From Flavobacteriales bacterium (GTDB lineage: Bacteria > Bacteroidota > Bacteroidia > CAIKAF01): a stretch of 64,000 bases of DNA. The notes below the pieces were generated by a model. That model was not told the DNA's origin and did no database searches. It saw nothing but the letters and a program-made list of their open reading frames with translations. Of this stretch, positions 4,447-11,853 are shown piece by piece. The translations under genes were made by a program, and so were the position numbers. Location of the stretch: contig JAGYKD010000001.1 of the NCBI GenBank assembly GCA_018401695.1, forward strand, positions 846,016-910,015, given 5' to 3'. Position 1 is the stretch's first letter; each line of letters starts with the position of its first letter.

Positions 4447-4605
4447 GGGGCGCCTTAACCGGTGCTCCTTTCAAGTCCTCGCTTAGGGCCTAAGGGCAGC
4501 AAGGCTTCCGGGGTCCCCAGATGGGTCTGGGGCCTCCTCAGCTCTTGCTGCCCTAAGGCCCTAAGCTCCGGGCTTTCCCAGCGCCCCGGGGCGCGTCTTC
4601 CAATG
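4447..4605. repeat. GC-rich stem-loop repeat, subtype A
   Basis: Fills most of the 329-base gap between murI and the DinB gene. A stem of about 22 bp pairs 4482-4503 with 4544-4565, and the loop carries its own CCCCAGA/TCTGGGG hairpin. The outer parts (TTTTTTGGGGCGCC at the left, CAAGTCCTCGC before the stem, GCTCCGGGCTTTCC after it, GTCTTCCAATG at the right) recur at 11704-11853 and in part at 24515-24700 with different stem sequences. ORFs called on both strands here look like artefacts of the high GC. The remaining bases of the gap hold nothing recognisable. Confidence 0.75.
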
Positions 4606-5283: not shown

Positions 5284-5544
5284 ATGTCTATGAAAACTGC
5301 ACGAAAAGCCATTGCGTTTGCTATACTCCTAACTCCCTTTATAAGCAGTTGCAGCGATGATTGCAGTACCGAAGATCCCGTATGCAAGGAAACGGTCCCT
5401 GTCGACCAAGCCTGCCAAGCCTATTTTAACCGCTGGTTTTACGATGCCAATCAAAACCAATGCACTGAAATTTCTTACTCCGGCTGCGATGCCAAAGGCT
5501 TTGACAGTCAAGCAGCTTGCGAACAATGCCTCTGTGCGGAATAA
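5284..5544 (+). CDS. Small lipoprotein with a Kunitz/BPTI-like domain
   Basis: 86 residues from the ATG at 5284; the earlier in-frame ATG lies inside the DinB gene. A short hydrophobic segment ends in FISSC, giving lipidated Cys23. The mature part reads like a Kunitz inhibitor: RWFYDANQNQC, YSGCDAKGF and SQAACEQC. Spacing Cys44-x15-Cys60-x7-Cys68 equals BPTI Cys14-Cys30-Cys38. The next loop is two residues short, and the final cysteine is displaced (Cys82 or Cys84). The position equal to BPTI Lys15 (P1) is Gln45, so trypsin-like inhibition is not predicted. Kunitz domains are mainly animal; this looks like a surface or periplasmic protease inhibitor, inferred only from the fold. Confidence 0.7.
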   Translation: MSMKTARKAIAFAILLTPFISSCSDDCSTEDPVCKETVPVDQACQAYFNRWFYDANQNQCTEISYSGCDAKGFDSQAACEQCLCAE

Positions 5545-5582
5545 GAGGCAATGGTCTAAACCATAAGGTAAGGGGACTTTAG

Positions 5583-5757
5583 CGCGTGGCCCCCCGGCCG
5601 TTTGGAGGCCCCTGCCGGAGCAAAGCCTTAGGCTGCCTTGGTGCGAGGAGGCGACCACAGGAAGCCCCCACAGCCCCGGCAGCCTTGGCTTTGCTTTGGC
5701 CGGGCCGCAAAGAGGACGGACAGGGACGATGCTTTACCCACGGAGCCGGGGCCCAAA
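5583..5757. repeat. GC-rich stem-loop repeat, subtype B
   Basis: A long imperfect stem pairs 5620-5637 (GCAAAGCC...GGCTGCC) with 5678-5694 (GGCAGCC...GGCTTTGC). The left edge GGCCCCCCGGCCGTTTGGAGG resembles the left edge of the element at 16186-16326. An ORF of 115 codons crosses it but follows the repeat composition and is not taken as a gene. Confidence 0.65.
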
Positions 5758-11703: not shown

Positions 11704-11853
11704 GGGGGGCAGCCGGGTGCTTCCTCCAAGTCCTCACCCCAAGCCTAAGGGCAAATAGGGCTTGCAGGGGCTTTCCAAGCCGCTTCAGCTCCTTTTGCCC
11801 TAAGGCTTGGGGCTCCGGGCTTTCCGTGCGCCCCCTGCCCCGGTCTTCCAATG
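11704..11853. repeat. GC-rich stem-loop repeat, subtype A
   Basis: Stem CCCCAAGCCTAAGGGCAAA (11737-11755) pairs with TTTTGCCCTAAGGCTTGGGG (11793-11812). The flanks (GGGTGCTTCCTCCAAGTCCTC on the left; GGCTCCGGGCTTTCC and GGTCTTCCAATG on the right) match the copy at 4447-4605 although the stems differ in sequence. Confidence 0.75.

Follow-up and report, generated by a model that had tools for sequence, protein, structure and literature searches.

The Kunitz inhibitors are considered a family of animal proteins. A small gene in a 64,000-nucleotide stretch of Flavobacteriales DNA (hereafter the window) raises the question of whether a bacterium may display such an inhibitor on its surface, since an earlier note, made from the sequence alone, had read its product as a lipoprotein with a Kunitz-like fold. 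In the literature that we searched, the sole bacterial Kunitz report describes a pathogen's protein with five such domains (PMC11511053). The window protein is a real variant of a familiar fold from an unusual group of hosts and, as far as that search extends, had not been described before. It belongs to a set that we term class A, a sparse and unstudied bacterial family whose reactive site, judged from its sequences, is not built for trypsin. The presence of this family across many Bacteroidia, together with its distinctive loop chemistry and a predicted fourth disulfide, extends the range in which the Kunitz fold is known and bears on the origin of that fold. Being short and easy to express, the protein also offers a means of testing whether protease inhibitors serve as a displayed defense in free-living bacteria.

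A Gene for a Small Lipoprotein

The gene lies at positions 5284–5544 of the window on the forward strand, as do all the features of the gene and of its DinB-family neighbor described below. It encodes a protein of 86 amino acids (MSMKTARKAIAFAILLTPFISSCSDDCSTEDPVCKETVPVDQACQAYFNRWFYDANQNQCTEISYSGCDAKGFDSQAACEQCLCAE), for which Met3 (5290) is an alternative possible start. Residues 1–22 (5284–5349) correspond to a signal peptide II ending in the lipobox I-S-S-C23, in agreement with the lipoprotein reading, and homologs with a complete N terminus likewise have a hydrophobic stretch followed by cysteine.

The nearest relative, L032, is 76% identical over the precursor and 89% identical over the mature part. 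In the mature region the two genes are separated by ∼8 synonymous and ∼7 nonsynonymous changes, giving dS = 0.24, dN = 0.05, and dN/dS ≈ 0.19. A chance open reading frame is ruled out by this ratio together with the occurrence, in dozens of genomes, of homologs that keep all the cysteines described below. We conclude that 5284–5544 holds a genuine gene that is subject to purifying selection.

A Variant Member of the Kunitz Family

The single Pfam match of the window protein is PF00014 (Kunitz_BPTI), with a score of 32.3 bits against a cut-off of 21 (E = 1.1e-7) and an envelope covering residues 33–81 (5380–5526); all 24 mature family members match the same profile. PF00014 corresponds to MEROPS family I2 and has BPTI, the Kunitz domain of APP, and collagen VI C5 among its members. 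No NCBIfam model matches the window protein. The PDB sequence matches listed are Kunitz domains, including SmCI, boophilin, APP, collagen VI C5, ShPI-1, and BPTI, with a best E of 6e-8.

Comparison with BPTI reveals both the shared frame and the departures from it. The motifs on which the Kunitz reading had been based (Cys44/60/68, RWFY, YSGC, and CDAKGF) are all present, and the six core cysteines occur in order, with the spacing C34-x9-C44-x15-C60-x7-C68-x10-C79-x2-C82-x-C84. They are in register with the 1-6, 2-4, 3-5 disulfide scheme of the family, giving putative pairings. The P1′ Ala, the R20/aromatic core (RWFY in place of RYFY), and YxGC are also shared. The corresponding spacings in BPTI are x8, x15, x7, x12, and x3; the first loop of the window protein is thus one residue longer (9 versus 8), the last cysteine spacing is 2 rather than 3, and the loop before the last pair is short, as had been noted, with 10 residues compared to 12. 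In addition, Gly12 is replaced by Gln42 (Glu in most relatives), Phe33 by Ile63, and Gly36 by Ser66. Unlike BPTI, the window protein is a bacterial lipoprotein with two extra cysteines.

The classical signature F-x(3)-G-C-x(6)-[FY]-x(5)-C (PROSITE PS00280) is not an absolute requirement of the Kunitz family. The window protein reads I-x(3)-G-C-x(4)-F-x(5)-C, with Ile in place of Phe33 and a loop that is two residues short, and because of this we regard it as a variant rather than an ordinary member of the family.

Structure prediction, which the earlier note had proposed, was carried out with AlphaFold2 without templates, using an alignment of the window sequence and 23 bacterial relatives only. 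In the model (pLDDT 75.5, pTM 0.56), a short helix at the N terminus leads into a two-stranded hairpin, which is followed by a helix at the C terminus. When it was compared with the PDB using Foldseek, the best 50 matches were all Kunitz domains, with probabilities of 0.99–1.00. A second family member, modeled with the window sequence left out of the alignment, gave a pLDDT of 79.8, and its best 50 matches were again all Kunitz domains. The TM scores of both models against single-domain PDB Kunitz chains are ∼0.5–0.7; model confidence is moderate, and the Foldseek E-values are weak (best 0.002–0.003), as expected for a domain this small. The hairpin-helix arrangement of the models, together with the profile score, supports the predicted adoption of a Kunitz fold by the window protein.

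An Additional Pair of Cysteines

The mature window protein contains eight domain cysteines rather than six, its main departure from the family and one that the earlier note had missed. The extra residues are Cys27 (5362–5364), just after the lipid anchor, and Cys84 (5533–5535) in the tail, and both are invariant in an alignment of 24 class A sequences. In a wider set, 39 sequences have both a cysteine 5–9 residues before the first Kunitz cysteine and one two residues after the sixth, and both are absent together from four (L018, L058, L059, and L092), although in L059 a separate N-terminal region contains cysteines that lie farther upstream. The co-occurrence gives p = 8e-6 by Fisher's exact test, uncorrected for shared ancestry. 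The pair is also found in the more BPTI-like L093–L095, and so is not limited to one branch. Since the two cysteines are either both present or both absent, we infer that Cys27 and Cys84 form a fourth disulfide beside the lipid anchor, with the canonical first-to-sixth bond provided by Cys34 and Cys82.

The Predicted Reactive Site

The predicted reactive-site loop is QACQAYFNR (residues 42–50; 5407–5433). Alignment to BPTI places P1 at Gln45 (5416–5418), followed by P1′ Ala46, just as the earlier note had it. The description of this glutamine as unusual does not hold within the family, where Gln is the commonest P1 residue: the counts in the wider set are Q 18, L 8, A 4, E 3, D 3, N 2, and one each of M, T, K, and Y. 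The Lys and the Tyr both belong to a second bacterial group, class B, so that no class A member of the wider set has Lys or Arg at P1, in contrast to the basic P1 found among Kunitz/BPTI proteins; in the 24-sequence alignment the class A residues are Q, L, A, D, M, and E. P1 ranks 11th in variability among 51 core columns; it varies, though less than some other columns do. Around it the frame is fixed. P1′ Ala46, P3′ Phe48, and Glu/Gln42 are each conserved in 24 of 24 sequences, Ser66 in 23 of 24, and the Cys44-Cys68 pair that frames the loop is invariant in class A.

A variable P1 within a fixed frame (Ala46, Phe48, and Ser66) is the pattern expected of substrate-like inhibitors, and this favors the reading of the protein as a canonical-loop inhibitor. 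What it might inhibit is a separate matter. Trypsin inhibitors typically have Arg or Lys at P1 and chymotrypsin inhibitors Leu or Met (PMC5107962), and the Gln of the window protein fits neither class. Together with the substitutions at BPTI positions 12, 33, and 36, this residue speaks against inhibition of trypsin. Moreover, the replacement of Gly12, Phe33, and Gly36 and the additional residue in the loop before Cys44 could weaken canonical inhibition, and for this reason inhibition should not be assumed. On balance we infer, with a probability of about 0.55, that the window protein is a surface-displayed, canonical-loop inhibitor of serine proteases.

Some animal Kunitz domains act as non-inhibitory binding modules. 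The window protein might likewise have lost inhibitory activity and serve as a small disulfide-stapled surface module for adhesion or for ligand or receptor binding, a reading that we consider less likely. In its favor are the changes at positions 12, 33, and 36 of the BPTI frame, which are found in nearly all class A members, the presence at P1 of Asp and Glu, which are unfavorable for most S1 proteases, and the second C-terminal domain of ∼110 residues in one Saprospiraceae homolog (L056). However, a non-inhibitory domain has no obvious need of the invariant P1′ Ala, P3′ Phe, and Cys44-Cys68 pair.

Probable Location and Possible Targets

Surface display of the protein is plausible from the residues around its anchor. 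The lipid-anchor Cys23 and the S-D-D after it occupy residues 23–26 (5350–5361) and are followed by Cys27. In Capnocytophaga canimorsus, the sequences SDDDD (from Bacteroides fragilis) and SDDFE (from Flavobacterium johnsoniae) drive surface display when placed after the lipid cysteine (PMC5080379), and C-S-D-D matches the start of both signals. The window protein also has what is expected of a Bacteroidota surface lipoprotein with a lipoprotein export signal (LES), namely a polar residue next to the lipobox cysteine and acidic residues at positions +3/+4. This is suggestive of an export signal in the window protein and does not imply export across the family, since many members have K, E, or N at these positions.

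The favored reading can be set out as a sequence of steps. Following cleavage, Cys23 would be lipidated to give a small outer-membrane lipoprotein, which the S-D-D signal would probably carry to the outside of the cell. The other 63 residues of the mature protein would fold as a Kunitz domain of β-hairpin and C-terminal helix, held by the putative bonds C34-C82, C44-C68, and C60-C79, with the predicted C27-C84 disulfide tying the tail to the anchor. The loop would then inhibit extracellular serine proteases in a substrate-like manner, for example enzymes of grazing protists or of bacterial competitors, and the P1 residues of the family (Gln, Leu, Ala, Glu, or Asp) would suit specificities other than that of trypsin. 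It is a more tentative suggestion that the eight-cysteine proteins are a Bacteroidia-specific lineage whose lipid-anchored inhibitors, bearing an acidic, amide, or aliphatic residue at P1, shield the cell surface from the proteases of bacterivorous protists or rival bacteria. If true, this would be a bacterial counterpart of an animal defense fold.

The target might instead be the cell's own secreted proteases, the inhibitor guarding the surface against self-digestion. The genome has six subtilisin-family (S8) matches and one trypsin-family (S1) match, and the likely surface location would suit such a role. Yet none of these protease matches lies in the neighborhood of the Kunitz gene, making an exogenous protease the more likely target, and no protease gene was recognized as a conserved neighbor across the family. 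Furthermore, 6 of the 16 genomes of the order lack the gene, and Kunitz inhibitors are described as inhibitors of S1 proteases (PMC5107962). We therefore consider protection against self-digestion unlikely.

Other Bacterial Kunitz Proteins

Class B comprises Kunitz lipoproteins (L018, L058, L059, and L092–L095) that, like the window protein, come from Bacteroidia, have a lipobox, and match PF00014 (∼48–52 bits where reported). They differ in keeping a BPTI-like loop (PGxC or AGPC in most), in having GGC, in showing YYY instead of WFY, and, in most, in a longer loop between the fourth and fifth cysteines. One of them, L092 (G677:C1:7900397-7900534; Pfam 50.4 bits), has the fully BPTI-like loop PGRCKAAF with P1 Lys, and is the best candidate that we have seen for a bacterial trypsin inhibitor. 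The retention of such loops in related bacterial domains counts in favor of the inhibitor reading of the window protein.

The published bacterial example is F6W77 of Acinetobacter baumannii, a five-Kunitz protein (domains KABP1–5) from a bacterial genome (PMC11511053). It is similar to the window protein in being a Kunitz-domain protein encoded by a bacterium. By its description it differs in having five canonical six-cysteine domains, three of them with P1 Arg, and in being an exotoxin that acts on factors Xa and XIa rather than a small lipoprotein (PMC11511053).

Distribution and Ancestry

The rarity of Kunitz domains in bacteria, which the earlier note had asserted, is borne out within Bacteroidota: PF00014 exceeds its cut-off in 6 of 396 genomes sampled across the phylum (one being that of the window itself) and in none of 14 control genomes, though in the window's own order the gene is common, with 10 of 16 genomes exceeding the cut-off. 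A class A profile, providing the taxonomic search that the note had also proposed, has matches in 28 of the 395 Bacteroidia genomes to which it was applied. Ten are in the window's order, ∼12 are class A elsewhere (among 379 sampled genomes outside the order), and the rest are weaker and mostly class B. Homologs are present in all six sampled genomes of the window's genus, and the contigs, most from MAGs, include those named as Crocinitomix, Pontibacter, Sphingobacteriaceae, Saprospiraceae, and Cytophagales.

A tree of 38 rows and 60 columns, in which BPTI and the APP domain represent animals, has low resolution. A branch with support 99/99 sets off class A as one group and a second, with 98/92, sets off class B, beside which BPTI and the APP domain lie; the alignment is too short to settle the branching inside class A or the direction between bacteria and animals. 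Eukaryotic contamination or a very recent transfer from animals, the best-known source of Kunitz domains, is refuted as contamination by orthologs with bacterial neighbors in many independent assemblies and is highly improbable as transfer given the bacterial lipobox, the bacterial genes that flank it on a long contig (genome size 2.99 Mb), and the strong support for class A as a group distinct from class B and from BPTI and the APP domain.

Gain by transfer had also been proposed. A recent eukaryotic origin is not supported, the family being a diversified group within the Bacteroidia, while movement of the gene among Bacteroidia, where its neighborhoods change, is likely. Searches of plasmids, phages, and viral contigs found no relatives, and so no sign of carriage by known mobile elements. 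In the tree, the window gene and L032 are placed away from the other members of the genus, and those others also have the gene at another site, which suggests that it has moved within the window's lineage.

Genomic Setting of the Kunitz Gene

The two sites within the genus are DinB-Kunitz, in two species, and queA-Kunitz-pseudouridine synthase, in four. In the window, a DinB-family gene (PF05163; 4770–5270) ends 13 bp upstream of the Kunitz gene, with which it is probably co-transcribed; elsewhere the pairing was seen only in the nearest relative, L032. Comparison of neighborhoods found no gene conserved beside the Kunitz gene across the family.

Some arrangements recur in part of the family. 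An ECF sigma factor gene lies ∼40–430 bases downstream on the same strand in three lineages (L033, L051, and L052), and a gene for an LVIVD-like lipoprotein lies upstream in L033, L047, and L053. One Saprospiraceae contig carries two tandem class A Kunitz lipoprotein genes (L053:5004-5192 and 5496-5687). In the two-domain Saprospiraceae homolog (L056:3782-4351) the Kunitz domain comes first, and Pfam recognizes this part only.

The window also contains a G+C-rich intergenic hairpin at 4450–4600, with arms at 4481–4521 and 4526–4566. It is a repeated element, having 26 matches in its own genome at E ≤ 0.01, several of them ∼140–150 bases long at 68%–80% identity. A second hairpin, with a similar CCTAAGGGCA-like core, lies at 11737–11812.
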